This document shows positions 22,167-63,420 of a stretch of DNA of 64,000 bases, one piece after another. The stretch comes from Bacteroidota bacterium (GTDB lineage Bacteria > Bacteroidota > Bacteroidia > NS11-12g > UBA955). The notes under the pieces were generated by a model. That model worked only from the letters and a program-made list of their open reading frames with translations. It did no database searches and was not told the origin of the DNA. The translations under genes and the position numbers were made by a program. Location: the NCBI GenBank assembly GCA_027621365.1, contig JAQCBH010000002.1:1-64000 (forward strand), given 5' to 3'. Numbering within the stretch: position 1 is the first letter of the stretch; the number at the start of each line of letters is the position of its first letter.

Positions 22167-22195
22167 AAAAGGTGTTTTCACAGTACGTGAATCTT

Positions 22196-22203
22196 CAAAT
22201 TTA
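22196..22203 (-). promoter_or_regulatory. Predicted -7 box of the PKD cargo gene
   Basis: TAAATTTG on the minus strand, a perfect TAnnTTTG, lies 29 bases before the ATG at 22166. It sits in the 62-bp gap after the upstream membrane-protein gene, so the cargo gene may have an additional promoter of its own. Confidence 0.45.
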
Positions 22204-22228
22204 GGCGATTTGGGGGATATCATTGGGA

Positions 22229-27894: not shown

Positions 27895-30800
27895 TTAATA
27901 GCTATCCAAGTCAATGGCGTGCATGATGCCGTACCAACGCACGACCTTCTCACCCAAGTCTTTGTTCTTTACATGTATTAAGTACAAACCAGAGGCAATG
28001 GGCACATTGCTTTGGTTCTTCAAGTCCCACTCGACGAAGGTCTGTTCGTCGGCCTTGGTGATGCGGCGAATCTGATTACCTGCCATGTCGTAGATCGTGA
28101 TCGTACATTCAGGAGGCAAGTTGGTGATCTTCACGCGAGAGTCAACGGGGCTGTTCTCGTATTCGCTGTAACCGCGGTAGGGGTTAGGCACCACATTCAC
28201 CAAATCCAAGCTAGCGATTCCTACATCGTTGGAAACTGTTGGAGCAATCTCGCTCGCATCGAATTCGTACATAGGACGATCGTTGTTCGCTGCATTGCCA
28301 GTTTGGAAGGTGGTATACGCCTTGCGAATGTTGATTTTGAACTTCACCTCGGTTGGAGGTACACCGTTGTCCATGTTGTAACCAGGAGCCAGATAAGTAG
28401 GCATTACCCACATTACCTGTGACAAGACGCGTGTCTTTTGCAAGTTATTGGGGTTTCCACCAGGAGCAGAAGCCATCAAACCGTCTTTGAAACGCTGGAA
28501 GTTGGCTTCATCCTCTCCAAAGTAACGATCACCTTTCACGTTGCGGGAAATACCGTTATAACCGGTATTGAATACATAGATGAAGTGCTTACCACCGATA
28601 ACGGGATAGTTACCATTGTCGTTGTACACACGGTCTGTCGGGTTGTAAATCATGTCACGACCGTTGTCACCAGGCAAGTAGCTGTCTTCAGAGAAAGCTA
28701 CGCACAAGCGCTCACCCGTTTCCATGTTGATGGCATAGCCAGGGAACCATCCCAAGCCCATGCTACCGGCGATGGGATTGCCTTCTTTGTCAACTGAATT
28801 GGCGTAACGCATGTTGAATTTTGACTGTTGACCCTCGGTTGAGGTTCTAACCTCGTCATCAGCCATTTCCAATACGGGGCAACGAGTCCACAAATCTTTG
28901 TTGGGAGTCAAGACAATTTCCACGCTGGCCAACTCGGCCATGGGGTTTTGCAAGCCTGTTGCGTTACCCCACCAAGCAAAACCGTAGGTATTCTTACCCA
29001 CTGTTGGGCTGTACTTTTCACGGGCCACCAAACCGTAAGGCGCGATGCGGCCGTTCCATATGCGCTCGTAAGCAGAACCGGGATCAACTGGGGTTCCGTC
29101 CTGATTGAAGAAGTCAGAAGTGTAACCGTCGAAGGTACCACCACGACCATTGCTACCGGCACGAATCCAGTTGGGCCATACGGTTTGTGATTGAGCGTTG
29201 CCGTTGGCGTCGTTATCGGCCACCGCCGTCAACCACTGCTTTCCGTTGTCTTCCCAGGTCACCTCATAAGAAACATATCCGTTAGAAGGATCAGCCTCGG
29301 CGTTCTCACCAGGGTTGTACACCTGCTCTACTTCAATGCTCAGACCCCAATCGGCCAAAGTTTCGGTTGTCGTATTGGCCACAGAGGGTCTACCCTGTAC
29401 ACTTTCAAATTTGACGGCGATGGTTGTATCACTAAATACGGTATCGCCAGTCGTTTGATTGACCAAGAACCACTGGGTATGTTTGGTCATGGAGTCTTTC
29501 AATCCAGATCCCAATGAGGTTTTCAATTCGTTGAACACCAAAGTAAATTTGGCATTGGGAACCTTCAAAGGATCAACCACTTTCACGTTCACAGGACCCA
29601 TACCGGGCATGTATTTTGGATTTGGAGCGTAACCCGTAGAAAGTACTTCATCCAAAGTTTCTTTGGTAAACTCCAACACCTGACCACCGTTTCCGCGACC
29701 CGACAAGCGCACCAATGAAGGACCACTGCCGTATTGGGTATTGAGTTGAGTTCCAAAATTCTCGGGTTCCGTTTTGTGAGGAATGGCGCGAATCACACGA
29801 ATGTTGCGGCGACCGGCCAAGTATTGATTGGGGTCTAGCTGCAAAGAATCATCGGCCAAGATGGCATAACTCAACACCATGTAGTAGTAAGGCTTGAAGT
29901 CAACCAAACGAGTGCTAGCTGAGGTTGCAAACAAATCGTTCTTGATGGAATAGCTGTGCTGTATTCCTTTGTCTGCTCCTTCGACCATGATGACAGGCAC
30001 CAACTGGGACAACTTAGGATCGTACACGCGGTTGATGATCATGTCACGACCGTTTTGAACGTCGGCTTGGAACAACAGACGAGCTTTGTCGATGTTGGTC
30101 AAGTCACCGGTGTTTACGGTTCCGTCTTTCAATTGGTATACCAAGTATCCTTCGAAAGCATAGGTCTTCTCTTGGTTGTTGGCGTCTTTATACTTCTCGC
30201 GGTAGTTCTCCACTTTGGTTGAATTGGTGTTCAAGAACTTCATCACCAATTCAGACTCCAACTCCTGGATTTCAATATCGGGAGCGTTAGGACCGTCCAA
30301 AATTTTGAAGTTGTTATTGAACAAGGTTTGTGCCTTGTCTGAAGCCAATTGCAACAAACGCAAAGACCCTGTGCCCAAGCAAGGTGCACCGGCACCGCCG
30401 CTGGTTGTACGAGCCCAAACAACACCTACGGTAATGCGCTGAACCTGACCGGGGCGCAACAAGAAAGGACCGGTTGACTGAATGAAACGACGGTCACCAG
30501 GACGGTTACCCGCGCTCTTTTCATCCCAGCACTCACCAGCATAGGCAGGATCGGTTGGGCCAGGGAACATGTAGTCGGCAGGTTGGCTACCACCAAAACC
30601 TGTACCACCCCAAGTTACCGTTTGACCACCGAGCCATTTTCCTTGAAGCAAGTTATAGAACTCAGGAGCCTCACCGGGATTACCGCGAATGGGGTCAGAA
30701 TCGTTGTTGTAGTACATGAAGTGACTCATTCCCATTTGATTGCCTGCCGTATCGGTAGGTCCTTCAAAGTAGTCTACACCGATGGTGGGAGGATTCAATC

Positions 30801-31791
30801 CATAACCCAAAACACCTTCGTCGTCGTCATCACCGTTGTAACAGTAACCCAAGCTACGGCCTACGTCACAACCAACATAGTCATCAGCATAGTTACCCAA
30901 ATCAGCATCGACCCATTGGCCCATGTAACAGTCGTTCAAGGTGGTGAAACCACGGTTGATGATTTTGGTTGAATAGAAGGTCATGTTGTTCACCTCGTCA
31001 TTCGTAGTAAACGCAAATGCCGTGGTTTGGCACTCTACACCGATGGGCTGACCCTGTGTCTCAGAGTGAATGTTGCCCTTGTCGTTGTATACCCACCAAA
31101 TGAACATGTCAGGCTGTTTATCGACACCGTTCTCTTCTGTGGGGCGGCGATCATCCAAAACGGGGTGTTCACCCGCAAATGGATCGTATACACCATCGGG
31201 AATGATTTCCTTGTAAGGAGCCAAATAGTGAGCCTCGTTGCCATTCATAACGGCACGGGTGCGACCGGCGGGCCAATCGCGAATACCCACACTTTGGTTG
31301 ACGTATTGACTGGATTCAAAATCTTCCAATTCATCGCGCGTCACCTTCCACATTTTATCGTAGGTCTTGCAACGAACAGGGTCAGTTGCGGCTGTTGTGG
31401 TATCCAAAGGACCGGGCCAGAAGTCTGATCCGCGCTGGCGATAGGTCATCGCAGCCAACTTCAAGCTACCTCCGTTGTCCTTACCGCCGATCCAGATGGC
31501 ACCCGAGAACAAGGAGTGCTTACGAACGGCATTGGGATCACTGATTTTGGGTACCTCATACTTGGGATTGTTCAAATCCCACCACATATCGCCGCCGTTC
31601 AACAACTTGGTTCGGACGTTGTTGATGTCCAAATCCACGCTTTGAGAAGCTGGCTCACAAGTGTTGGCAAATTGGCCACCGCGACGATCTACACTGGGGC
31701 GTGTACCGCGGCCATTGACGTTGACAATGGGGCGAGCGCTCAGTGAGCTTAGCGTTAATGCCGTTAACAAAAGAATGCCAAATCGTTTCAT
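27895..31791 (-). CDS. Large T9SS surface protein with a FlgD-like C-terminal sorting domain
   Basis: A 1,298-residue secreted protein with a signal peptide (MKRFGILLLTALTLSSLSA). No catalytic domain is recognised. The body is rich in Gly, Asp and aromatic residues. The C-terminus has the FlgD-like/T9SS target fold (VVPNPYRGYSEYENS, ITIYDMAGNQIRRI, VPIASGLYLIHVKNKD), followed by an unusual tail (YGIMHAIDLDSY) beyond the normal Lys-Val-Val ending. It lies 25 bp after a TonB-dependent receptor and 8 bp before a PorV-family gene. This triplet seems to make up a surface complex, perhaps for nutrient capture; the ligand is unknown. Confidence 0.85.
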   Translation of the reverse strand: MKRFGILLLTALTLSSLSARPIVNVNGRGTRPSVDRRGGQFANTCEPASQSVDLDINNVRTKLLNGGDMWWDLNNPKYEVPKISDPNAVRKHSLFSGAIWIGGKDNGGSLKLAAMTYRQRGSDFWPGPLDTTTAATDPVRCKTYDKMWKVTRDELEDFESSQYVNQSVGIRDWPAGRTRAVMNGNEAHYLAPYKEIIPDGVYDPFAGEHPVLDDRRPTEENGVDKQPDMFIWWVYNDKGNIHSETQGQPIGVECQTTAFAFTTNDEVNNMTFYSTKIINRGFTTLNDCYMGQWVDADLGNYADDYVGCDVGRSLGYCYNGDDDDEGVLGYGLNPPTIGVDYFEGPTDTAGNQMGMSHFMYYNNDSDPIRGNPGEAPEFYNLLQGKWLGGQTVTWGGTGFGGSQPADYMFPGPTDPAYAGECWDEKSAGNRPGDRRFIQSTGPFLLRPGQVQRITVGVVWARTTSGGAGAPCLGTGSLRLLQLASDKAQTLFNNNFKILDGPNAPDIEIQELESELVMKFLNTNSTKVENYREKYKDANNQEKTYAFEGYLVYQLKDGTVNTGDLTNIDKARLLFQADVQNGRDMIINRVYDPKLSQLVPVIMVEGADKGIQHSYSIKNDLFATSASTRLVDFKPYYYMVLSYAILADDSLQLDPNQYLAGRRNIRVIRAIPHKTEPENFGTQLNTQYGSGPSLVRLSGRGNGGQVLEFTKETLDEVLSTGYAPNPKYMPGMGPVNVKVVDPLKVPNAKFTLVFNELKTSLGSGLKDSMTKHTQWFLVNQTTGDTVFSDTTIAVKFESVQGRPSVANTTTETLADWGLSIEVEQVYNPGENAEADPSNGYVSYEVTWEDNGKQWLTAVADNDANGNAQSQTVWPNWIRAGSNGRGGTFDGYTSDFFNQDGTPVDPGSAYERIWNGRIAPYGLVAREKYSPTVGKNTYGFAWWGNATGLQNPMAELASVEIVLTPNKDLWTRCPVLEMADDEVRTSTEGQQSKFNMRYANSVDKEGNPIAGSMGLGWFPGYAINMETGERLCVAFSEDSYLPGDNGRDMIYNPTDRVYNDNGNYPVIGGKHFIYVFNTGYNGISRNVKGDRYFGEDEANFQRFKDGLMASAPGGNPNNLQKTRVLSQVMWVMPTYLAPGYNMDNGVPPTEVKFKINIRKAYTTFQTGNAANNDRPMYEFDASEIAPTVSNDVGIASLDLVNVVPNPYRGYSEYENSPVDSRVKITNLPPECTITIYDMAGNQIRRITKADEQTFVEWDLKNQSNVPIASGLYLIHVKNKDLGEKVVRWYGIMHAIDLDSY

Positions 31792-31816
31792 ATCTATTTT
31801 CTAGGAGCTGTACAGA

Positions 31817-34800
31817 TTAGTTCAAGTTCATACGCAATCCCAAACGAATGGTGCGGGGGTTGGCGTAGTTACCAGTTTGAGAGTTTAACAAAATGCGATA
31901 CAAATCCACATAACTCTGAGAGTTGATCTGGTTTTGAATCAGCAACTGACCTTGAGGAGAATTCAAGAAACCGTCATCCATGGGCTGACCGGTGTAAGGG
32001 AACACATTCACGACGTTGAAGGTGTTCAGCACATTCTGAATCCAGAAGAAGGCATTCATTTGCAAGTCATTCTTCTCAGTGCGACTAACAGTGAAACCTT
32101 TGGTGATGTTGATGTCGAAGGTATTCTGCCAAGGCAAGCGAGCACCGAAAGGCACACCCTTGATTTGGGCACGGTCAACGGCTCCAATCTGCACAGCGCG
32201 GGTTGTTGGCGTATAGGGAGCACCGCTATAAGAGTTGGCAATGATGTTGAAGCTGGTCAACTTGAAAATTTCCTTGCCATTGATGCGGGGACCGGTATAC
32301 AAATTCTTCTTGCTGCGAGGATCGATACCACCGCCCCATGCCCAAGTAGCCGAAACCTTGAAGTTGTTGCGAATGTCCAATTCACCCAAAGGAATCACGT
32401 TGCGCAAGTTGGGCTGGTTTGACGCAATCAAAGTAGCCTGTGAACTGATGTTTGAACCCGTACCGTCGGCAAACTGCAACATGTAAGAGAATGACAAACT
32501 CAAGGGGCCTGGACGACCGCCAGCGCCTACGTTGTCCATTACGTATTTGGTGCGGAATCCGCTAACAGTAGCGAAGTCGATGTTGCGGTAGGTCGTATAG
32601 GTAACAGGATAGCCTTGGTTGATTTGGTACAAACCAAAGTCATTGCGAATCTCTGAATAAGAAACAGCCAACTCCAAACCGCGGTCACCGCGACGACCAA
32701 ACACCTGCTTGTAACCCGCTTCATAATCGGTTTTCAAACGAGGGCCCAAATCACCGTTGGAGATAGTAGAACCTTGGCGATTCTTTAGGTAATACAACTC
32801 GTCAATTGACAAGAAGGAGGCGCCGCTATTGGGGCGCTGAGCCAACACGTCATAGCTAACGTAGAAGGTTTTGCGCTTGGGTTCCAAGGGGAAACTGAAC
32901 CAAATACGGGGAAGCAAATTCACGTTAGGAGTAAAGTCCTTAAAGGAAGCACTTGACAATTCCTGCTTGCTGGGATCAATCAAATAAGGAGCAATGCGAC
33001 CATTGCTGGTTTGGTTGGCTAAGAATTCAGGGTTGCGCTGCTCAGAACCATCGGCATTGTACCAACGGTCGCCATCGCGGTAACCCAAGATTTTGGTGGG
33101 AGCTTCGATGTCATTAACATATACCTTGAAGTCTTCACCCATGTTGCTGGGATGATCGGCGGCCAATCCATTGATTTCAGTGACTTCACCTACTGTCTTA
33201 ATGGGATACAAACTGTATGCATCGCGCAACACGGACTGGTTGGCATCATAACGCTCCATGCGAAGACCCATGCGGAAGATCAAATCCTTGAACTGGAATT
33301 GGTCTTGCAACCAAGCGGCCATGTATACAGGTTGGAAGGCGCCAATCAAACGCTGATCCTTGTTGTTCAAGAAGTCATCCAATGAAGGCTTTCCTTTGAT
33401 TTTGTTACCCAAGTGATCGTAACCAAAGTAGCTAACCACACCGTTACCATTGTTCAACATCTCATCAGCATTGAACATATCCAGACTGAAATCTTCAGGC
33501 TTATAAGAGTTGATATCGATGAAGGTGCGCTCACCAACGGGACGACCGTAAACGTCAACGGCGCCGTCATTGATCAGTTTGTCACGGAAAGCGCGGTCAA
33601 AGTGCGATTGAGATTCATAATTGATCAAGCGGTTGTAGCGAACGGTATCGGTGAACACCCCGTTGGCATCGTAGCTCAAAATGGGGTTTTCCAAATCCAA
33701 TTCCGCAATGTGGCTGTTCATGTATTGGTTCATGAGGATCCACAATCCGTTGGCTCCCAAACCATAACCACGGCTGATTTGCTGTTCGTAGTAGAAACCG
33801 GCTTGCAAGTCATGGGGAGTACGCTCACGTCCACCCACTGATTTGCCTTGAACCTGCATCTGACCCAAAGCAAACACCGAATAGCGCTCGCTTTGGCTCT
33901 TGCTCCAACCGGCAGTGATTCCACCAGGGGTACCCCACAAAGAATAGACGTTGTTGGGGTTAAAACCGTTCAACAAGCCCTGGTTGGCAATCAAGGTACC
34001 TTGACTGGTCACGTTGAAGCCACGGCTATCGTAGTAATCGTAAACATTCTGAGTGTATTTGGCACGAAGAGGGTTCAAATCGCTGGCTTGGAAGGCCATC
34101 AAGGTATCGCGGTAACCCACCAATTCCCAATAGTTGCGCAACTGTACGTAGTTACCGTATTGGTCACGCACAATTTTGGGCTCTTTGTTGGGGTTCTGCT
34201 GAGCATCGTAATTCGAATAGAAAAACACCTCTTCAGGGTAACGAGTGAAGGTTCCCACGTAACCATAGTCGAAGATGTTGTTCAAGTGCTTGGCATCGCG
34301 GGTTTGGGAAGTTGATGATTGGTATTCACCTCGAATGGTGTAGAACGCCGACTTGATTTGGCTTTCCTTATCCACTTTGAAGTTCTGGGTAAACTGCAAA
34401 TAGCCACGATAGGTCTGGTTGTCGCTACGGGCGTTGTTCTTGAAGTTCATGATGCTGTTGCTAGCCGAACGACCATTGGAATAGAAGTAAGAACCATAAC
34501 CCGTGATGGTAATCAAATCTGTGGGACGGAATTCCAACTTGCCAATGAAATTACCATTGTACAAGGCTGAATTGGGGCGAGCCTTCAACAAATCAAAATC
34601 ATCTTCCGTCAAGTAACTAGCGGCATGAACGAAACCATTGGGTGTGATGATCAAAGGGTTTTCCTCAATCTCAGCCAACTTGTCTTCTTTCACCACATAC
34701 ACACCCGTGCGGGTAGGATTAGGCTCTTTGTAATAGCCTAAGTTTCCGTTCAAGGTGAATCCGAGCTTCACTAATTCCTTGGTGCGACCGCCATCTGTCA

Positions 34801-35581
34801 AGATATTCTTTTTCCAAAGTGGACCAGACACAAACCCTTCGACGGTATTGTAACCGAAGGCATCCAATCCGGTAGAGGTAATGCCCTCAATGGCTGAAAC
34901 CATTTTAGCAGAAGCACTCTTAGAGGTATAACTAAAAGCACCACCAGTCAAATCACCGTACATGGCAGGAATACCGCCGATGTTTACAGCAACAGCTTCC
35001 GTACCCAAGCTGGGCAAGGTACCGCCACCGATGATACGCATTCCGTCAATGTAGGTTCCGTTACCGTCGGCACGAGTTCCGCGAACCGAAGTACCTTGAC
35101 GAGTGGCCAAGATACCCGCGTCTGTAGAAACGGCATAGGCTGCACCACGCTTACCCGCACCCAACAACTTCGCACCCGAAATTTGGGTTTCTCCGTTGTT
35201 CAAGCTTACAGGACCGCGGCGACCGCTTACCACAATTTCTACAGCCGGACCTGATTTTAGGAAACGAACTTCCCAGGGGTCGTTGTAACCGGCAACCAGT
35301 TCCAAATTCTCTTTTTTCTGAAGGGGAAACCCTGCGTACTCGGCGGTGGCCACGTATACCCCTGGATTCAGGGTTTGGAATACTACGTTACCGTCTGAGT
35401 CGGTGGTGTCAGAAGCGACTTCGATGTCGTTCTGGGTCATGACCACTCGAACACCCGAGATTTTCTTTCCATCTTGGTTCAATGCCTTTACACGAAAATC
35501 GGCAAAGTTGATTTGCGCCCAGGCGCTTCCAGCAGCGAACATTGCAAGGGTTAGAGCCCACTTGAGATGCGTATTCTTCAT
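31817..35581 (-). CDS. TonB-dependent receptor with N-terminal carboxypeptidase-like regulatory domain
   Basis: A 1,254-residue outer-membrane transporter. I use the ATG at 35581, which opens a clean signal peptide (MKNTHLKWALTLAMFAAGSAWAQ); the frame extends to 35725 without signal-like residues. A CarboxypepD-regulatory-like domain covers about 25-105 (VKALNQDGKKISGVRVVM), then a plug (VSGRRGPVSLNNGETQ, SVRGTRADGNGTYIDGMRI) and a large barrel ending TIRLGLRMNLN. No SusD partner is nearby, so it is not of the SusC type. It is the first gene of an operon with a T9SS surface protein and a PorV-like protein. Substrate unknown. Confidence 0.9.
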   Translation of the reverse strand: MKNTHLKWALTLAMFAAGSAWAQINFADFRVKALNQDGKKISGVRVVMTQNDIEVASDTTDSDGNVVFQTLNPGVYVATAEYAGFPLQKKENLELVAGYNDPWEVRFLKSGPAVEIVVSGRRGPVSLNNGETQISGAKLLGAGKRGAAYAVSTDAGILATRQGTSVRGTRADGNGTYIDGMRIIGGGTLPSLGTEAVAVNIGGIPAMYGDLTGGAFSYTSKSASAKMVSAIEGITSTGLDAFGYNTVEGFVSGPLWKKNILTDGGRTKELVKLGFTLNGNLGYYKEPNPTRTGVYVVKEDKLAEIEENPLIITPNGFVHAASYLTEDDFDLLKARPNSALYNGNFIGKLEFRPTDLITITGYGSYFYSNGRSASNSIMNFKNNARSDNQTYRGYLQFTQNFKVDKESQIKSAFYTIRGEYQSSTSQTRDAKHLNNIFDYGYVGTFTRYPEEVFFYSNYDAQQNPNKEPKIVRDQYGNYVQLRNYWELVGYRDTLMAFQASDLNPLRAKYTQNVYDYYDSRGFNVTSQGTLIANQGLLNGFNPNNVYSLWGTPGGITAGWSKSQSERYSVFALGQMQVQGKSVGGRERTPHDLQAGFYYEQQISRGYGLGANGLWILMNQYMNSHIAELDLENPILSYDANGVFTDTVRYNRLINYESQSHFDRAFRDKLINDGAVDVYGRPVGERTFIDINSYKPEDFSLDMFNADEMLNNGNGVVSYFGYDHLGNKIKGKPSLDDFLNNKDQRLIGAFQPVYMAAWLQDQFQFKDLIFRMGLRMERYDANQSVLRDAYSLYPIKTVGEVTEINGLAADHPSNMGEDFKVYVNDIEAPTKILGYRDGDRWYNADGSEQRNPEFLANQTSNGRIAPYLIDPSKQELSSASFKDFTPNVNLLPRIWFSFPLEPKRKTFYVSYDVLAQRPNSGASFLSIDELYYLKNRQGSTISNGDLGPRLKTDYEAGYKQVFGRRGDRGLELAVSYSEIRNDFGLYQINQGYPVTYTTYRNIDFATVSGFRTKYVMDNVGAGGRPGPLSLSFSYMLQFADGTGSNISSQATLIASNQPNLRNVIPLGELDIRNNFKVSATWAWGGGIDPRSKKNLYTGPRINGKEIFKLTSFNIIANSYSGAPYTPTTRAVQIGAVDRAQIKGVPFGARLPWQNTFDINITKGFTVSRTEKNDLQMNAFFWIQNVLNTFNVVNVFPYTGQPMDDGFLNSPQGQLLIQNQINSQSYVDLYRILLNSQTGNYANPRTIRLGLRMNLN

Positions 35582-35697
35582 AGATTTTTCTTGGTTCAAT
35601 TCAGTAGATGAGGCGCCGTTGAGCGATTCCATCCGACTAATTGGCAATTTTACCGAAAAATCAAGAGAGTAACAACCCCTTAGGCCTCGAATTAAAG

Positions 35698-35720
35698 GCC
35701 AAATGAGCCTTGTATTTGGC
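35698..35720. other. Stem-loop between serA and the TonB receptor gene
   Basis: GCCAAAT (35698-35704) pairs with ATTTGGC (35714-35720) across a 9-base loop in the 179-bp gap. There is no T-run, so it is not a clear terminator. The rest of this gap has no gene, and the best candidate promoter is TAAAATTG, a one-mismatch -7 box about 60 bases before the receptor ATG. Confidence 0.3.
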
Positions 35721-35760
35721 TGCAATCAACAGCACTGGGTCCATACTGGGCTTCAAGACA

Positions 35761-52498: not shown

Positions 52499-53404
52499 AT
52501 GAAATCTTGGAAATGGTATTGGCTGCTCATGAGGCCCAAGAACTTGGGGCTGACCTTGCTGCTCCAAGCCGTTTTCATGATGGCCAGTTCTCGAGTCAAA
52601 GGCAACTCTGACTCCTTGGCTTCTTTGTTTCGCATCGATTGGTCCAACTTTCGCTGGCCTGAGGCCGGATTGGTGACTCTCTCCTGTTTGCTGACGGCAG
52701 CCGCCGGTTATGTAATCAACGACCTCTATGACGTTGAAACCGATCGCATCAACCGCCCGCGAAAACGCATCATCGCTCAGCACATCAGCCCAGAATCGGC
52801 GAAGCGATTTTACTACGCATTGAGTGTACTCGGACTGGTATTCGCCTTCATGAGCGGATGGGGCATGGGGCTTTTGGTCGCAGCCATAGCCCTGTTGTTG
52901 CATTATTATTCATCTGACTTAAAGGGAACCCCATGGCAAGGCAATGTATTGATTGCTCTGATGGGCGGCATGGTTGTCTATGTGGCCTCACGCGGAGTGC
53001 ATCAGGTACAAAGTGGATACTTCGCTGAATTCGCATTATTGGCCTTTTGGGCCACCTTGGCTCGCGAGATCACTAAAGACGCCGAAGACGTGGAAGGAGA
53101 CACCCATAGTGGGTACCAGACCTTAGCAGTTAGCAAGGGGGTAAAATCAGCCAAACGCCGCGCCCAACTTTCGTATTTCTGTTTGCTGGGCAGCATTGTT
53201 CTTCTTCAATTGTTTGGATTGAAGCTCTCTGGGCTGCACCGAATGCTGTTTTTTGGCTATGCCTGGATAGCGGTCATGGGGCTTTGGTTTTATGGGCTCA
53301 TTCGCCTTACACAAGCTCAGAGCTCGAGCGACTTCAAACAATCGGCCAACCTTCAAAAATGGCTGATGTTGGTGGGCCTGATGTGGGTTTGGTTCCTGCC
53401 TTAA
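52499..53404 (+). CDS. UbiA-family prenyltransferase (geranylgeranylglycerol-phosphate synthase type)
   Basis: A 301-residue membrane enzyme with about eight spans that transfers a prenyl group from a diphosphate. The two Asp-rich motifs are NDLYDVETDRINRPRKRI and REITKDAEDVEGD. Many Bacteroidetes have this UbiA branch, usually annotated geranylgeranylglycerol-phosphate geranylgeranyltransferase; true substrate uncertain. It begins 9 bp after def and ends tail-to-tail with, and overlapping by 4 bp, the minus-strand DUF3109 gene. Confidence 0.88.
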   Translation: MKSWKWYWLLMRPKNLGLTLLLQAVFMMASSRVKGNSDSLASLFRIDWSNFRWPEAGLVTLSCLLTAAAGYVINDLYDVETDRINRPRKRIIAQHISPESAKRFYYALSVLGLVFAFMSGWGMGLLVAAIALLLHYYSSDLKGTPWQGNVLIALMGGMVVYVASRGVHQVQSGYFAEFALLAFWATLAREITKDAEDVEGDTHSGYQTLAVSKGVKSAKRRAQLSYFCLLGSIVLLQLFGLKLSGLHRMLFFGYAWIAVMGLWFYGLIRLTQAQSSSDFKQSANLQKWLMLVGLMWVWFLP

Positions 53405-53976
53405 AATCTCGGCTTCCAAGCAGCGTAGACCTCACACAATTCTTGGTACCACTCTTCCCCCATCTTTCGAATCAAGGCTGATTTGAGGAATTCATGTACG
53501 GGAATGTTCATTTCTGTTCCCGCTTGACAAGCATCGCTGCAAATGTCCCAGTTGTGGTAATTCATGGCGGTATAAGCCCCGTATTTTTTGGCCCGAATGG
53601 GATACAAATGGCAACTAATGGGTTTGAGGAAGTCGCTTTTACCCGCTGCATGGGCTTCTTCGATGGCACAAGAGGCTAGACCATTGTCCTTGTAAACGAC
53701 AAACACGCACTCACCCGTTTCTCGGCAACGAGTCACCGGCTCACCGTCTTCGTCTACTTCTGAAAAATTGCCTTGACCCATGAGCTCCAATCCTTCGGCT
53801 GACATGAAGGGTTTGATGCCCTCTAAATTGGCACTGATGCGCTCTATCTCAGCATTTTCTAAGGGTGCTCCAACATCTCCTTCCACGCAGCAAATGCCTT
53901 TGCACTTGTCAATTTGGCAAGCAAATTTTCGCTCGAATACATCTTCAGACACGAGGGCCTGACCCACTATCACCAT
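53401..53976 (-). CDS. DUF3109-family cysteine-rich protein
   Basis: A 191-residue cytoplasmic protein typical of Bacteroidetes. Nine or so Cys include CQIDKCKGICC, CRETGEC, SCHLYPIRAK and CSDACQAG, suggesting a metal or iron-sulphur site as in the related YkgJ/CxxCxxCC group. Function unknown. It begins 3 bp after purE, so it is in the yicC-pssA-purE run. Confidence 0.88.
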   Translation of the reverse strand: MVIVGQALVSEDVFERKFACQIDKCKGICCVEGDVGAPLENAEIERISANLEGIKPFMSAEGLELMGQGNFSEVDEDGEPVTRCRETGECVFVVYKDNGLASCAIEEAHAAGKSDFLKPISCHLYPIRAKKYGAYTAMNYHNWDICSDACQAGTEMNIPVHEFLKSALIRKMGEEWYQELCEVYAAWKPRF

Positions 53977-53979
53977 GGC

Positions 53980-54489
53980 TTAAGAGCGCTGTTTGAGGTA
54001 TTCTCTCCAGTCAGATTCAACCGATTGAGCTTTGGCCAATACGTCGGTTTCCATTTGCGACTTGTAAGAAGCGACGCGATTAGCCAACTCGGCATCAGCC
54101 GTTGACAAAATCTGCGCGGCCAATATACCAGCATTCATGGCTCCGTTGATGGCCACAGTGGCCACGGGAACGCCTGGAGGCATTTGAACGATGCTGTACA
54201 AACTATCGACACCGCTCATGGTTTTGGATTGAACCGGAACACCGATGACGGGCAAATGCGTAAAGCTGGCAATCATTCCGGGCAAATGGGCAGCGCCCCC
54301 GGCTCCTGCGATGATGCAAGCGATTCCACGACCCGCTGCCTCTTTGGCATAGGCCATCAAACGGTCGGGGGTACGGTGGGCCGAAACAATGCTCACCTCG
54401 TGAGATACCCCTAACTGTTCAAGGATTTTTGCTGCTTCCTGCATGACAGGCAGGTCGCTGTCGCTTCCCATGATGATACCTACTTTCAT
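53980..54489 (-). CDS. purE: 5-(carboxyamino)imidazole ribonucleotide mutase
   Basis: Purine biosynthesis enzyme that rearranges N5-CAIR to CAIR. About 169 residues; the active-site motif is [10 protein letters not shown] near the N-terminus, with [13 protein letters not shown] and [14 protein letters not shown] use the ATG at 54489, which overlaps the pssA stop by four bases; the upstream part of the frame lies in pssA. No purK is adjacent. Confidence 0.96.
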
Positions 54490-55223
54490 GATGTTGAATT
54501 TGATTGCTTGCCTGCAAAGTTCGCCAAAACCGAACAAATGAGGTAACCCAACAGCAATAGAGGCCCTGCGGCATAGGGTAAAACAAGAAGAGCAACCACA
54601 GAATACGCAAGAAATGCGAAGTGCCAAATGCCCAGTTTACCCTTAAATGCGATCATGCGGGTCTCCCCTACCATCAAAAAAGCTGCGCAAAGTGGCATGT
54701 ACAACCAAACGTAAAACTGATTAAAAAATCGCAACAGGTCAGCTTCACAACCCGAGGCAAAAGCTTCTTGCTTCAAGGCGTGCGGCATCAAGGACCAGGC
54801 AGCCAAGGCCAAACCCATCATGGGTGTAGGCACCCCAACAAAACCAGGACCCTCGACCGATTGCACATTGAATCTCGCCAAGCGCCAAGCCGCCGCGAGT
54901 GGAATCAATACCCAGACATATTGGTTGATGCAAAAGCCACTGCTGCTGCAATACCCCAATTCCAACATATAATGCCTCCAAATGAGGCCAGGAACCACAC
55001 CAAAGCTGACCAAATCAGCCAAGCTGTCCAGTTGTTTGCCCATTTCCCCATCAGCTTTCAATAAGCGGGCGACAAAGCCGTCAAGAAAGTCTAGCACAGC
55101 AGCTAGCCCCATAAACGACAAAGCTGCCAAGGGGGCATTGTTGTCTCCAGTAGCCAAAGCGGAAATGGCCATTAACCCGCAAAGCAAGTTGCCCAGGGTG
55201 ATGTAATTCGCAATTTGCTTCAT
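54486..55223 (-). CDS. pssA: CDP-diacylglycerol-serine O-phosphatidyltransferase
   Basis: Makes phosphatidylserine, the precursor of phosphatidylethanolamine, in the inner membrane. The 245 residues have several spans and the CDP-alcohol phosphatidyltransferase motif [20 protein letters not shown] followed by SLAD, matching DGx2ARx8Gx3Dx3D. It starts 9 bp after the EreA/ChaN-like gene and overlaps purE. Confidence 0.94.
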
Positions 55224-55232
55224 GCCTTTGGT

Positions 55233-57245
55233 TTACCAATCATCTTCCCAATCATAGGAGTAATCATTGGGCTCTGCATCAATTAAAAATTCCAAACGGA
55301 ACCCAAAGCCCATTCCGTTCAAAGGATTCCCCAAAGCATCGGGAGCCAAATAGGGAGTTAGGGTTCCTTTGTAGTAGTACTGCAAGCTGCCTGAACGATC
55401 ATTGATATTCAAGGCTTGCTGCATACCGGCGTATGCGCTCAATCGAATCTCATCGACCAGCTGATAGCCCAAAGAAAGAGAAGACATCCAATAATTCTGA
55501 TGGGCGACGACACTAACCATACCTCGAGGATCGGGATTCAAGATGGAACTTGAAATCGGAGACCAGTGCAACTTATCGGTCAACTGACCCACTCCCACAC
55601 TGGGACTTATGACCCATTTCTCACCTACATGAAAATCAGCAAACCCTTGCAAAGAGGTGGTATTGGTACCCATCTTCAGATTACCATCTATGCCGCTGTA
55701 AACGGGCATCGCATACAAACCTTGTTCGAGGCGAAGCCCCAAATGTTCACCCCTGTAAGCAAAGGCAAATTGATAATATATGGGACTCGGCACATTCTCG
55801 AAGGGCTTGCTCAAGCCCTGAAAATGAGCAGCCATGGCAGAATAATCTGCGCCCAAAGTCCCAAAGCCTAAGGGCTCAAAAATGACCCAAGAAGATGATT
55901 CGCTATTCTCGCTGTATTCGTATTCGTCGTCGCCGTAATAAGAAGCATCCAACGTAGTATCAACCTCTAAGCCTTCTACCTGTTCACTGTGCAAAAGAGC
56001 CAGATGAAACTTTTCAGCCAACAAGGGCAATTGAGCCGAAGTGTCGCGAATGTCGAACACAAAGGTCTCGGGTTCTTCGTAACCCGTAATACTTAGAATC
56101 TCATCGCGAATGGCCTGACGTTTCGACGGATCATTGGTCGAAATGGCATCCATCTCATCTCGGTAAAACACCCCAATAGACAAAACCATGCTGTCGCTTT
56201 GGAAATAGCGCTGAGAAATGCGATTGACCACGCTGTGGTACTCGAACCATCCGCAGTCTTGTTGCTGTGGAGTAAGGCCCACGTGACAGCGCCCAAATTG
56301 ACCAAAGAACTTGGACTCAGGTTCAGCTGACAAAGCCCCCTTCAAGGTTTGGTACATGTGCTCTTCGCGCCAAGCGTATTGCTGGGCCAAGTCATCCAAC
56401 TCTTCCCAACGCTCGTATTGCTTGAGCCATCCCATGGCCTCGGCATAGCCGGCATACTCCGAACCCAACCAGTTGCGCATAGCACCATCCAGGCTGTCGG
56501 CATAACGAGTGACCAACTCACTCAAGGTGCATTCGTAATCACCATCTCCCTCAAGCCCCTGAAGGTGAGGCAATTTCTCGGTTCGGTATTCCACCTGACC
56601 TTCATCCAAAGCCATAGCACCCATCTGGTGCAGGGACTCCACGAATGACTTCAATTTATCGGGGATTCCGGTCTTCGGCAACAATTCATGGAGCCGAAGC
56701 ATGGGCAAATCGGTGAAGCGCTCAACGTCTATTCCCACGATTCGAATCTGCTTCTCAGAGGGTATATCCTTCATCCAATTGCGCATAGCACGGAACATGT
56801 CCATGTACCGGTAGCCCGTCATGCTGCGCAACACAGCCAGGGCCATGGTATCACCATCGCAGATGTAGCGGTTCATGTAGTGAGCGCGGGCCGGGCTGAG
56901 CTCAATCAAGAAGCGATTGAAGCCTTTTTGCTCGTACAAGTTTCGCATCATCACGTACTCCAACATGGAGTTGAATTTGGAATAAGAATGATTCTCACCC
57001 GTGAATACCAAGCGCGCATTTCCAACATGGGAGATGATCATATCCATTCCCGGGCTTTTCACCGAATCATCAAATCCCATATCGACCAAATAGGCCTTGG
57101 GGATTACAGGTGCTTTGGCAGCATCATTCTGACTTTCATTGCCTGCCATTTCAACCCCTGAATCTGCGGCAACGGCTGTTGTATCCATTTGGGCCCAAGC
57201 CGAAGGGCTAGCCATAAGGGCTATGGCCAAAAATATCTTTCTCAT
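55233..57245 (-). CDS. EreA/ChaN-like domain fused to an outer-membrane beta-barrel
   Basis: A 670-residue exported protein (signal peptide MRKIFLAIALMASPSAWAQ). Residues 55-425 resemble the erythromycin-esterase/ChaN superfamily: ARLVFTGENHSYSK (Glu84, His86), FNRFLIELSP (Glu115), IVGIDVERF and GRCHVGLTPQQ (His321) correspond to the core strands and active-site positions. A short acidic Tyr-rich linker (YYGDDEYEYSENSES, 436-450) leads to a region of amphipathic strands (about 455-660) ending in VRLEFLIDAEPN-type sequence (GFRLEFLID), which looks like an outer-membrane barrel. It follows a diverged paralog with an ATGA overlap. Activity and substrate unknown; the combination is unusual. Confidence 0.8.
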   Translation of the reverse strand: MRKIFLAIALMASPSAWAQMDTTAVAADSGVEMAGNESQNDAAKAPVIPKAYLVDMGFDDSVKSPGMDMIISHVGNARLVFTGENHSYSKFNSMLEYVMMRNLYEQKGFNRFLIELSPARAHYMNRYICDGDTMALAVLRSMTGYRYMDMFRAMRNWMKDIPSEKQIRIVGIDVERFTDLPMLRLHELLPKTGIPDKLKSFVESLHQMGAMALDEGQVEYRTEKLPHLQGLEGDGDYECTLSELVTRYADSLDGAMRNWLGSEYAGYAEAMGWLKQYERWEELDDLAQQYAWREEHMYQTLKGALSAEPESKFFGQFGRCHVGLTPQQQDCGWFEYHSVVNRISQRYFQSDSMVLSIGVFYRDEMDAISTNDPSKRQAIRDEILSITGYEEPETFVFDIRDTSAQLPLLAEKFHLALLHSEQVEGLEVDTTLDASYYGDDEYEYSENSESSSWVIFEPLGFGTLGADYSAMAAHFQGLSKPFENVPSPIYYQFAFAYRGEHLGLRLEQGLYAMPVYSGIDGNLKMGTNTTSLQGFADFHVGEKWVISPSVGVGQLTDKLHWSPISSSILNPDPRGMVSVVAHQNYWMSSLSLGYQLVDEIRLSAYAGMQQALNINDRSGSLQYYYKGTLTPYLAPDALGNPLNGMGFGFRLEFLIDAEPNDYSYDWEDDW

Positions 57246-59362
57246 TTTTTTACCTCTTTCTCAAACGCGAAGTCAATGACTTCTTCTACTGCTGTTGTAT
57301 CGTAATCAACGCTCTCTCCTACTCCTAAGGGAATCGAATAACTGGCTGAAATCTGATAGTAGACGCTATTGTTCACGAAGCCTGTCTCGCTGTTGATGAA
57401 TGTGCCATTGATTTTCCAACGATCGTCTGAACCATCCCAATTGTAACCCATCGAACCTTTGATTTGAACAGGACCCAATTGCAATCGAACATCGCCACCC
57501 AAGCCGTACAACCAACCGGGATTGACAATAGCGCTGACGCTATTGGCCGTAAAGTCTGGACTGCTAAAACTAGGCAAGGTGATGCGATGATCCACATAAC
57601 CCATGACCCCAGACAAACCGACCCAAAGGCCACCTTGACCACTGCGCAACGGATTTTTGGATTGATAACTGTGCGAAGGACCCAACAATCGAAACTCTCC
57701 ACCACTGCTGAACATCCAATATTGAGAGGCAAATTGAGAGGCCTCAAATTGGAAATTGGTGTAGCCAAACCCAATGGTCTGGCAAGATTTTTGGCCTTGT
57801 GAAAAACTCACCGATGCCTGACCACCCCAAGAGCTCAAGCCGGGCAACTCTTCCAATCCTCGACTGCTCAGCACCGCATTGAGGGAAGTCAAGCTTTTCA
57901 GCATCCCAAAATTCGTGGCTCCCAAACTCAACAAAACACCGGTAGCATCATCTGATTCCCAGTCGTAATATTCCATGTCGTAATCATAGTCTTCTTCATC
58001 AGAAGATTCATATCCTTCGTCTATTTGAGAATCGATGATATCACCGTCAAATAGGATGAGTGAATCTGCTTCTGGAAGGTAAATTCCCCACTGTTGAACA
58101 GCGGGGTTTTCTTTGGGCAACGTCAAGGCAAACCAACGCTGAGCTGGCCAGGCTGACTCTTGGTCAAAGCTATCAGCGTAGGCCTTTGCCATTTGCGGTT
58201 CCAATTGGGGTTTTACCTCAGTGGTATCGTATTTCGCCAACAACTTGCGCTCATAGATTTGCAGTTCAGGCTCATCAAACAAATTCATTCTCACGACGGG
58301 CAGTTTTTCGTCCAACGCACGGTCCATCAACGAGTGAAAATCGGTTTTTTCGGCTTTGGTACGAACCTCTTGACCCAGGGCCCAAGGCCATTCTCCGGCT
58401 ACAACGACTTGATCTCCCAGGTCTCGGCGATCTTTGATGTGCTGCCAAATATGCATTTGCCAATCAATGTTCACCATTGGCTCTTCGCAACCCGGACTTT
58501 CAAATTTGACGCTACTCATCAGTCGCTCCAGTTCCAAGCTATCCATTTTGACGTAAGACGCGTAGGGTCTTCCTCTCTCTGGGTAATATTCCAAAAATGC
58601 TTTCAAGGTACTTTCCATGCTAAACTCCGGATCGGGTTCTTCCATTTCGTAGTCGCTGTAATCGGCGTCTTCCTCTTCCATGCGCATCTCGTACTGCGCA
58701 TACTTCAACTTTTCCTCAAGCACCCTATTCACAGCTTTGAAAGCTTCGTGATGGGCTCTCCATTCCCAATCGCAACTCTCGTCGCTGTCGATGATCTGAA
58801 CAAAAACGAGTGCCAAGGCTTGCCACCACCACTGCCTCAACATGGGGTAAACCCGAACATGACCAGCCGTATCAAATTGGCGAATGCATTTGGCCAATTC
58901 TACCGTCATATCAGGAGCCGTTGAGGAAGGCAGCATCTTCAATCGAGCCATGTCGATAGAATCGCCGGTTTCTAGGTATCGATTGATCAACCAGGTATTG
59001 CTCGGCTGCAAAGGCACAAACAAGGCAATGTTGCGTGGACTTTCCAAGGCATTATTGGCCATAATAGCCGAGACGGCGTGCAACTTCAGCCAGCGCTGTG
59101 GGGGTCGGAAATATGGGTGCACCTGAGGAAACCAAATGGCCCCAGATTCCCAATTCAAATTTGTCGCACCCTTCATATTGGAAGGGTCTGACAGGGCAAA
59201 ATAGGCGGAGAATGGATCCAACTCCATCGAATCGGAAGGTTCAAAGTCTCTAACCTCGACATCCTCCATGACCAACGACTCTTCGGCGACTTGGCCCTGC
59301 GCAAATCCCCAACTGACAAAAGCCAGTAGACCCAGAGCCCAATTTTTATAATTCTTATTCAT
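57242..59362 (-). CDS. Diverged paralog: EreA/ChaN-like region without active-site motif, plus barrel
   Basis: About 706 residues from the ATG at 59362 (MNKNYKNWALGLLAFVSWGF signal; an ATG at 59377 adds five residues). The N-terminal half aligns in pattern with the downstream gene (for example LINRYLETGDSIDMARLKM beside MNRYICDGDTMALAVLRSM), but the GENHS active-site motif is missing, so it is probably inactive. Two very acidic stretches (EEEDADYSDYEMEEPDPEF; SSDEEDYDYDMEYYDWESDD) separate it from a C-terminal barrel-like region (about 480-690). It begins 46 bp after yicC. The pair may act as one active and one pseudo-enzyme subunit. Confidence 0.78.
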   Translation of the reverse strand: MNKNYKNWALGLLAFVSWGFAQGQVAEESLVMEDVEVRDFEPSDSMELDPFSAYFALSDPSNMKGATNLNWESGAIWFPQVHPYFRPPQRWLKLHAVSAIMANNALESPRNIALFVPLQPSNTWLINRYLETGDSIDMARLKMLPSSTAPDMTVELAKCIRQFDTAGHVRVYPMLRQWWWQALALVFVQIIDSDESCDWEWRAHHEAFKAVNRVLEEKLKYAQYEMRMEEEDADYSDYEMEEPDPEFSMESTLKAFLEYYPERGRPYASYVKMDSLELERLMSSVKFESPGCEEPMVNIDWQMHIWQHIKDRRDLGDQVVVAGEWPWALGQEVRTKAEKTDFHSLMDRALDEKLPVVRMNLFDEPELQIYERKLLAKYDTTEVKPQLEPQMAKAYADSFDQESAWPAQRWFALTLPKENPAVQQWGIYLPEADSLILFDGDIIDSQIDEGYESSDEEDYDYDMEYYDWESDDATGVLLSLGATNFGMLKSLTSLNAVLSSRGLEELPGLSSWGGQASVSFSQGQKSCQTIGFGYTNFQFEASQFASQYWMFSSGGEFRLLGPSHSYQSKNPLRSGQGGLWVGLSGVMGYVDHRITLPSFSSPDFTANSVSAIVNPGWLYGLGGDVRLQLGPVQIKGSMGYNWDGSDDRWKINGTFINSETGFVNNSVYYQISASYSIPLGVGESVDYDTTAVEEVIDFAFEKEVKK

Positions 59363-59407
59363 ATTCAAATGCTCCATTCAGAGCGAAACCCAATTGGTTG
59401 TTATAAG

Positions 59408-60292
59408 TTAAACGATATTCAGAACCTGTTCTTTTATCTGTTCCAATTTTTCCTTCATGGCCACAACGGCTTGCTGCATGGGAAAGTGATTGCTTTTCAC
59501 TCCCATGGTATTCATCTCACGTCCCATCTCTTGGGCAATGAAATTCAACTTTCGGCCCTTAGGCTCGCTTTTTAAGCAAGCTTGGAAATAATCCAAATGC
59601 TGACTCAAACGCTGCTTTTCCTCCGCGATATCCCACTTATCGAGATAGACCAACAGTTCTTGCTCAAAACGGGCATCGTCTACACCATTCTGCTTAATGT
59701 GTTCGTGCAAATTGTGGTATACCCGTTCCCGCAACCCCTCTTTCCGAGGAGCTTCTTCACTTTCTACAGTTTGCAGATCTTTCGATATGGAAGAAATCAA
59801 CTGTGCCAATTTTTGACCGGTGGCGGCCCCTTCAGAACGACGAAAATCATCCAAGGCATCGGCGGCTTGAATCAAGCATTCCTGGACTATGCCCGCCAGG
59901 GAATCATCGGCCTCTTTTTCACCTTGTTTGAGCACATCAGGATAGCGGATGACTTCTTTCAAGGGGTCTTGCAAGGGAGCACCCACGGCTGAACCCAAAT
60001 CTTGCAACACCTTCAAGTATTGCTGAGCCAAAATAAGATTGGCTTCCAGACCTTGGGATTCACCAAGTTCCCTTTGTTCCAATTTGATGTGGCAGGTGAT
60101 GGTTCCTCTTTCCAATCGCTCATTCAACAACTTACGCAAGATCGGATCCCATTCATTGAGTATTTTGGGCATGCGCAAATCAGCTTCGAAATAACGTCCA
60201 TTCAAAGCCTTGATTTCACAAAGTACCGACCAATGGTCGTTCTCCACTTTCGCACGGCCAAAGCCCGTCATGCTCTTGATTGGATCACTCAT
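59408..60292 (-). CDS. yicC: YicC-family endoribonuclease
   Basis: A 294-residue cytoplasmic protein; E. coli YicC is a metal-dependent endoribonuclease affecting small RNA stability. The N-terminal KSMTGFGRAKVE and C-terminal LNFIAQEMGREMNTMGVKSN are diagnostic. The ATG at 60292 is preceded, 4 bases away, by TATCTTCG (60297-60304), a one-mismatch -7 box; the open frame to 60706 is rejected. The usual partner gmk is not next to it. Confidence 0.95.
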   Translation of the reverse strand: MSDPIKSMTGFGRAKVENDHWSVLCEIKALNGRYFEADLRMPKILNEWDPILRKLLNERLERGTITCHIKLEQRELGESQGLEANLILAQQYLKVLQDLGSAVGAPLQDPLKEVIRYPDVLKQGEKEADDSLAGIVQECLIQAADALDDFRRSEGAATGQKLAQLISSISKDLQTVESEEAPRKEGLRERVYHNLHEHIKQNGVDDARFEQELLVYLDKWDIAEEKQRLSQHLDYFQACLKSEPKGRKLNFIAQEMGREMNTMGVKSNHFPMQQAVVAMKEKLEQIKEQVLNIV

Positions 60293-62058: not shown

Positions 62059-63420
62059 ATGTCAATCAAACGCATTTTTAACACCTGCTTCATCGCACTG
62101 AGCTTTTTGTCTACAGCCTTTGGCCAAGTCAGCATCAATGAGCTGATGAAGCTCAGGCCCATTTCAGTAGGCATGCACCCCACCCCCAAATCAGCCAACA
62201 TCATTTACTTGGAAATGGGGTTTTCCCGAGCCAAGTTCATCGAAGAACTCACCGCCAATAAGCTACCCGTCGCCAACCAAATCCAGGCCATTCATTTGGT
62301 GTACACTCGGTACCGCCAAGTAGATTCCTTCAATCAGCCTGAGCTCAACCGCAAGCGCTTTGCTGAATTGCAAGCCGTATTCCCCAGCATTTTCGAAGAA
62401 TCCAACATTGAATGGCGCATTTTCGAGCAGCGCAAACCCGTCACCGAAGACGATGCGCGTCAAGCCTTTCACGGCTTTGTGGTGTATTTGAAAAATCCGC
62501 CGAACGAAGCCGAAGTAGAGAAAGAACTCAAGCGCATTGAAGCCGTACTAGAGACCTATCGCGACACCAGCACCTGGGTCCCCGAAAAAATCCTGTACCG
62601 CACCAAGAGACACCTCGAACCCACCGGGTTCTATTTGCCTCACAACAACTCCAAAAAACTGCAAGGCATGCGCTTTGAAAGTGCGGGAATTTGGATGCGC
62701 AAACCCGAGATGAAAGTGGTGGTGGACAGCATCCCATTGAAGAAAATACCGGGCTACTACCGCAAAGATGGCATCTTCGATTCTTCGTTGTTGGCCCGTA
62801 CCACCGAATACCGATCCTTGACCTCCAAGGCATGGAACGGTCGCTGGACCATCATTGCCGATGTAACCGGTTCCATGAGCCCTTACAATGCCCAGGTCAT
62901 GCTTTGGCTTCGCTACTCCACTCAGGCCTTGGAAATGGGTCGATTCTGTTTTTTCAATGATGGCGATTCCAAACCTCAGGAACTCAAATTCGTCGGCAGA
63001 ACAGGTGGTTTGTACTTTGCCGAATCCCAAGACTTCGACTCTGTCTACCGAACCATGGCCATCGCCATGAAGCATGGCATGGGCGGCGACTACCCCGAAA
63101 ACAACATTGAAGCCACGCTCTATTCTCTGAAGCGTTGGCCCGATACCGATTCGGTCTTGATGATTGCTGACAACAATGCCCCCATCAAAGACATTTCCCT
63201 GATGCAACACGTGGACAAACCCGTTTGCATCATGCTCTGCGGCGTGCACGACCAGATTCATCTGGACTACATCGAACTCGCCCGTAAAACGGGAGGCAGC
63301 TTGCTCGTCAATGGAACCGAACTCCGAAACCTGCAGGTGTTGCGTACGGGAAGCAAGGTTAAAATTGGACGGCATTGGTTCATCTACCAAAGCGACGGTC
63401 TCAAACGAATCGGAAGCTGA
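62059..63420 (+). CDS. Exported von Willebrand A-like protein of unknown function
   Basis: A 453-residue protein with a signal peptide (MSIKRIFNTCFIALSFLSTAFGQ). A von Willebrand A-type fold appears from about 262 to 420, with a metal-ion-dependent adhesion site WTIIADVTGSMSPYNAQ (Asp268, Ser272, Ser274) and a second acidic loop MGGDYPENNIEA (Asp344). The N-terminal 260 residues have no recognised domain but are charged and helical. It lies 3 bp after bshB1. Periplasmic or surface location inferred; partner unknown. Confidence 0.85.
   Translation: MSIKRIFNTCFIALSFLSTAFGQVSINELMKLRPISVGMHPTPKSANIIYLEMGFSRAKFIEELTANKLPVANQIQAIHLVYTRYRQVDSFNQPELNRKRFAELQAVFPSIFEESNIEWRIFEQRKPVTEDDARQAFHGFVVYLKNPPNEAEVEKELKRIEAVLETYRDTSTWVPEKILYRTKRHLEPTGFYLPHNNSKKLQGMRFESAGIWMRKPEMKVVVDSIPLKKIPGYYRKDGIFDSSLLARTTEYRSLTSKAWNGRWTIIADVTGSMSPYNAQVMLWLRYSTQALEMGRFCFFNDGDSKPQELKFVGRTGGLYFAESQDFDSVYRTMAIAMKHGMGGDYPENNIEATLYSLKRWPDTDSVLMIADNNAPIKDISLMQHVDKPVCIMLCGVHDQIHLDYIELARKTGGSLLVNGTELRNLQVLRTGSKVKIGRHWFIYQSDGLKRIGS

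Follow-up and report, generated by a model that had tools for sequence, protein, structure and literature searches.

The window (the whole 64,000-nucleotide stretch analyzed here) encodes two overlapping genes on its minus strand, A and B, each predicted to join an enzyme-like N-terminal domain to a C-terminal barrel. Gene B (55233..57245, minus strand), identified from its open reading frame, Pfam and profile matches, encodes a putative exported hydrolase of the Ere/TIKI superfamily of 670 aa; the frame opens with ATG and has no internal stops. A sequence-only reading of this DNA had placed an erythromycin-esterase/ChaN-type domain in the same frame, at exactly these coordinates, with Glu84 and His86 as key residues, and all three points were borne out. 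Gene A (57242..59377, minus strand; up to 711 aa) lies immediately upstream and is a full-length inactive paralog of B, recognized by hhalign and by its lost catalytic residues; its start is likely at 59362, with GGAG upstream. The stop codon of A and the start codon of B share the sequence ATGA (57242..57245, minus strand), an arrangement that points to translational coupling.

The conserved neighbors, assigned from Pfam matches and synteny, are all on the minus strand: upstream, a gene for a YicC-like endoribonuclease (yicC; 59408..60286, start approximate; PF03755/PF08340), and downstream, a pssA-like CDP-alcohol phosphatidyltransferase gene 9 bp past B (54486..55223; PF01066) and, farther on, purE for AIR carboxylase (53980..54492; PF00731). 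The operon-like order yicC-A-B-pssA-purE-DUF3109 (53404-60286 in the window) recurs across the family, with yicC found at 20 loci, pssA at 26, purE at 23, and DUF3109 at 22. The locus is a vertically inherited housekeeping neighborhood and not a mobile resistance locus. Proximity to pssA offers a lead toward phospholipid metabolism; no pssA relatives lay near homologs from other families among the loci fetched. A scan for promoters and terminators gave matches at chance level.

Elsewhere in the window are a PKD-domain protein of 1,797 aa that carries a CHU_C signal for type IX secretion (16830-22223), which means that the host genome encodes one or more T9SS-type cargo proteins, and two adjoining ORFs of ~1,300 aa (27895-35725), one without a Pfam match at 1e-5 and the other with CarboxypepD_reg alone. 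A 453-aa ORF (62059-63417), also without a Pfam match at 1e-5, is conserved, next to a gene for a PIG-L deacetylase, in ~15 relatives.

The B protein begins with a signal peptide evident in its sequence (residues 1-19, MRKIFLAIALMASPSAWAQ; 57189..57245, minus strand), and a lipobox scan found no lipobox. The Ere/TIKI domain (residues 55-425; 55971..57083, minus strand), delimited by PF05139 and by profile matches to the PDB entries 2qgm, 2rad, and 6xcq, is followed by an acidic linker that was defined from the family alignment (residues 426-451; 55893..55970, minus strand; across the family ~21 aa on average, range 12-32 aa, ~24% Asp/Glu) and by a predicted eight-stranded outer-membrane barrel, placed from profile matches and strand pattern (residues 452-655; 55281..55892, minus strand). 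AlphaFold models built from an input of three near-identical sequences had a mean pLDDT of 30 for full-length B and 37 for the barrel.

Residues 105-310 of B match PF05139 with 32.7 bits (gathering cut-off 26.4; E=8.5e-8), the comparison that the sequence-only reading had proposed for this domain. The same family is detected at E<=0.1 in 20 of 38 B homologs, and B is its sole match in the host genome. A profile of the 38 homologs, searched against PDB sequences, retrieved Bcr135/136-type proteins (2qgm, 2.4e-10; 2rad/3b55, 3.2e-9) and, from the same alignment, EreC (6xcq, 8.2e-6). The domain almost certainly has the Ere/TIKI superfamily fold; the parallel β-sheet core of that fold is predicted here from the profile matches to solved members.

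Nineteen columns are invariant among the 38 homologs: G83, E84, H86, N92, E115, D132, D173, R176, R293, E294, G315, F317, G318, R319, C320, H321, C331, W333, and Y361. The functional residues of EreC, proved or proposed, are E47, H50, E78, R261, and H289 (PMC7979712). E84 and H86 of B, in the GENH motif (residues 83-86; 56988..56999, minus strand), correspond to EreC E47 and H50, and E115 (56901..56903, minus strand) to E78; the intervening intervals are 29 residues in B (H86-E115) and 28 in EreC (H50-E78). R293, next to E294 (56364..56369, minus strand), and H321, in the motif GQFGRCH...C (residues 315-331; 56253..56303, minus strand), are equated with R261 and H289 by spacing and invariance rather than by structure, the interval being 28 residues in both proteins. 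The Glu-His pair has E-x-H spacing in all 38 homologs and in barrel-less relatives; the E-x-x-H of EreC is absent. E84, H86, E115, and H321 therefore fit the E-x-H ... E ... H arrangement (2His/2Glu) of the TIKI superfamily. The RRSP site, E3900/H3902/E3930/H4030, has the same E-x-H spacing and is reported to be metal-independent (PMC6254334).

C320 and C331 are present in the barrel-fused members from the class-level sample as well. Two barrel-less relatives of 393-411 aa from family f3 (L112:464-1696 and L113:511-1689) keep the five catalytic residues; they are without R319, C320, and C331. From these two comparisons the cysteine pair seems to be tied to the barrel-fused form, and it could possibly form a disulfide.

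Gene A, which the sequence-only reading had passed over, is the more distinctive feature of the locus. When a profile of 19 upstream proteins was compared with that of B by hhalign, 563 columns aligned (probability 100, E=3.7e-53). In the window's copy, a degenerate Ere domain (residues 55-450; 58028..59215, minus strand) matches the B N-domain (probability 100, E=2.3e-39), and a C-terminal barrel (residues 470-684; 57326..57970, minus strand) matches the B barrel (99.0) and free-standing barrels (97.5). No Pfam match above cut-off was found in A. At least one catalytic residue is missing from A in all 19 genomes and all five are gone in most, including the window's copy (0/5 retained); three genomes (G010, G031, and G034) retain two of the five, and no A copy has GExH at the active-site position. 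The apparently least decayed A copy, in genome G013 (L035:6247-8121), has Phe in place of His86 and retains E84, E115, R293, H321, and both cysteines. Judged from these alignments, A is a duplicate that has kept fold and barrel and lost catalysis, and it shows the marks of a pseudoenzyme: a homologous fold, absent catalytic residues, and a gene that is maintained. Since the hydrolytic set is complete and unvarying in B, whereas A has lost some or all of it, B is predicted with good confidence to be an active hydrolase.

Of the 18 A-B pairs measured, 13 overlap by exactly 4 bp and the others by -2 to 10 bp. Among the 29 family genomes with a match, a full A lies beside B in 19, B stands alone in seven, and in three A or the upstream region is interrupted by a contig end; the seven genomes with B alone show that B does not require A in every case. 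In genome G017, A and B form one ORF of ~1,494 aa with both heads and both barrels (L049:4287-7580 and L048:9530-11035), assembled across two contigs whose ends agree in 105 out of 106 residues. A tree of 67 sequences separates the A proteins from all others by a branch (SH-aLRT 94), and tandem B copies cluster. The topology is as expected if a single duplication within the family gave rise to A and B, a placement that is not firm given several long A branches.

It is possible to read A as a mere decaying duplicate that hitch-hikes in a stable operon while B works alone. The greater divergence of its N-domain (mean identity 18%, against 36% in B) and the seven genomes that have B without A would fit such a reading. 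However, the A frame is intact in 19 genomes, and its dN/dS against the nearest relative (0.056 by NG86, 0.10 by YN00) is no higher than that of B in the same comparison (0.097 and 0.13, respectively). A is under purifying selection and is not decaying. Its barrel also has its own set of conserved residues, and the conserved coupling and the one A-B fusion likewise speak against decay, so that a decaying A is unlikely. We lean instead toward A as a functional partner of B.

The C-terminal third of B has no direct match to PF13505 (OMP_b-brl), and the barrel profile retrieved no PDB entries. The C-terminal part of the B family profile is matched, however, by free-standing proteins of ~225-290 aa from other Bacteroidia; against free-standing proteins of ~240 aa the B barrel profile reaches an hhalign probability of 99.3 (E=2.7e-20). 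These relatives apparently carry signal peptides, and one of them matches PF13505 above cut-off while others match it weakly. Beyond the free-standing set and A, the highest score of the barrel profile was a weak one (38.6), against ten PF13505 members of the relatives; as negative controls, ten neighboring-gene families scored at most 0.2, or at most 1.7 with N-domains included. The family-averaged alternation of hydrophobicity is strong in the C-terminal third (z=+5.0, against -1.1 in the N-domain), and the strand pattern consists of eight amphipathic strands joined by loops L1-L4 of ~28, 16, 32, and 27 aa and by three turns of ~2, 3, and 3 aa (2-4 aa overall). These profile matches, flat controls, and strand periodicity support the barrel proposed by the sequence-only reading, and the C-terminal region of B is very probably an outer-membrane barrel. 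It differs from the small OMP_b-brl barrels to which it is related in being fused behind an enzyme domain.

In small outer-membrane barrels with an even number of strands, the periplasmic side bears the short turns and the outer side the long loops. Under the predicted topology, both ends of the B barrel are at the short-turn side, and with a linker of the length described above this places the enzyme domain in the periplasm; we consider that the domain probably faces the periplasm. The surface-displayed hydrolase envisaged in the sequence-only reading, its N-domain turned outward by the barrel, is accordingly left without support. Outer-membrane anchoring is plausible in itself and Bacteroidota possess surface export routes, but the barrel N-terminus falls on the periplasmic side, the linker is short, and, to our knowledge, an eight-stranded barrel offers no pore for a folded passenger of ~400 aa. 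Nor does B match an autotransporter family or CHU_C in Pfam: it has no T9SS C-terminal domain, though the genome encodes a CHU_C protein, and its C-terminal domain of ~200 aa is too small for an autotransporter translocator of 12 or more strands. Display at the cell surface is quite unlikely.

The empty Pfam and PDB searches would suit a soluble β domain in the C-terminal third, B then being a soluble periplasmic enzyme. The signal peptides apparent in the free-standing relatives, the PF13505 matches of some of them, the alternation of hydrophobicity, and a spacing of strands and loops typical of an eight-stranded barrel argue against such a domain, which we regard as improbable.

ChaN proteins (PF04187) are heme-binding lipoproteins of the same superfamily, located in the envelope and having the GExH spacing, and on these grounds B might be a ChaN-like, non-enzymatic outer-membrane protein that binds heme. 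PF04187, the second family that the sequence-only reading had suggested for comparison, did not match B at E values up to 10; B is anchored by its predicted barrel, unlike the lipid-anchored ChaN; and the contrast between the complete, unchanging hydrolytic set of B and its breakdown in A points to catalysis, making a ChaN-like role very improbable. That B is an erythromycin esterase conferring macrolide resistance is hardly credible: despite the PF05139 match, a weak match to EreB, and the conserved Ere catalytic residues, the EreB model scores 21.8 bits where its cut-off is 750, the motif is GExH and not the E-x-x-H of EreC, inheritance is vertical within a housekeeping neighborhood, and matches on plasmids are partial. 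Macrolide resistance, ChaN membership, surface display, and A as a simple pseudogene were each rejected on the grounds given.

The plasmid collection yielded just two matches, with 52% and 19% query coverage, neither reaching 80%, and a scan of viral contigs for further homologs yielded none. PADLOC likewise returned no matches, so B is not a known defense gene. In a class-level sample of 295 genomes there are ~17 carriers of full-length enzyme-barrel proteins, from seven families (f1, f2, f12, f13, f21, f40, and f46). Among 248 genomes sampled across the phylum, a set that differs in make-up from the class-level one, the host genome alone matched at E<=1e-20.

Known Ere and TIKI hydrolases are soluble, anchored by lipid, or part of toxins. 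With the erythromycin esterase family (PF05139: EreA/EreB/EreC, Bcr135/136), B shares its fold, by profile, and E/H/E/R/H at corresponding positions; it differs in the GExH motif, the fused barrel, C320/C331, the chromosomal housekeeping context, and the inactive twin. With the TIKI/TraB hydrolases (RRSP and Tiki) it shares E-x-H, a second Glu ~29 residues on, and a distal His; these have other targets and anchoring, and the portions of the literature consulted report no outer-membrane barrel for them. An unrelated Ere homolog has been noted at graspetide loci (PMC8939145). Neither an Ere-barrel fusion nor an enzyme-pseudoenzyme pair was found described in a search of open-access titles and abstracts. 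The "new kind" of hydrolase announced by the sequence-only reading thus holds insofar as no published description was found in the open-access literature, but the architecture is neither unique to this protein nor lineage-specific. B is best read as an enzyme with its own small outer-membrane barrel, a novel architecture and pairing inside a known superfamily.

Taken as a whole, a barrel-anchored, periplasm-facing hydrolase B with a pseudoenzyme partner A is the explanation that we moderately favor. The signal peptide would export B, the eight-stranded barrel would insert in the outer membrane, and the N-domain would be suspended by its short linker at the periplasmic side. The active site would activate water without a metal: H86 may act as the base, held by E84, with E115 and H321 positioning the water and R293 stabilizing the intermediate. 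B may thereby hydrolyze a substrate of the periplasm or outer membrane, at either an ester or a peptide bond. A, presumably made from the same transcript as B, would most likely be its structural or regulatory partner and may contact it directly. More tentatively, A and B could form an obligate outer-membrane enzyme-pseudoenzyme complex in which the inactive subunit controls access to the substrate, a lipid or peptide of the envelope, or presents it.

If such a complex exists, it would be the first pair of its kind found in the superfamily, as far as could be searched, with paired barrels holding an active and a dead head under the outer membrane. The A copies, in which the active site is lost by degrees under selection, from His86 alone to all five residues, offer a clean test case for the evolution of pseudoenzyme partners. 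The barrel-tethered B, in its housekeeping location, suggests a native envelope role for a fold known chiefly for its part in antibiotic resistance.
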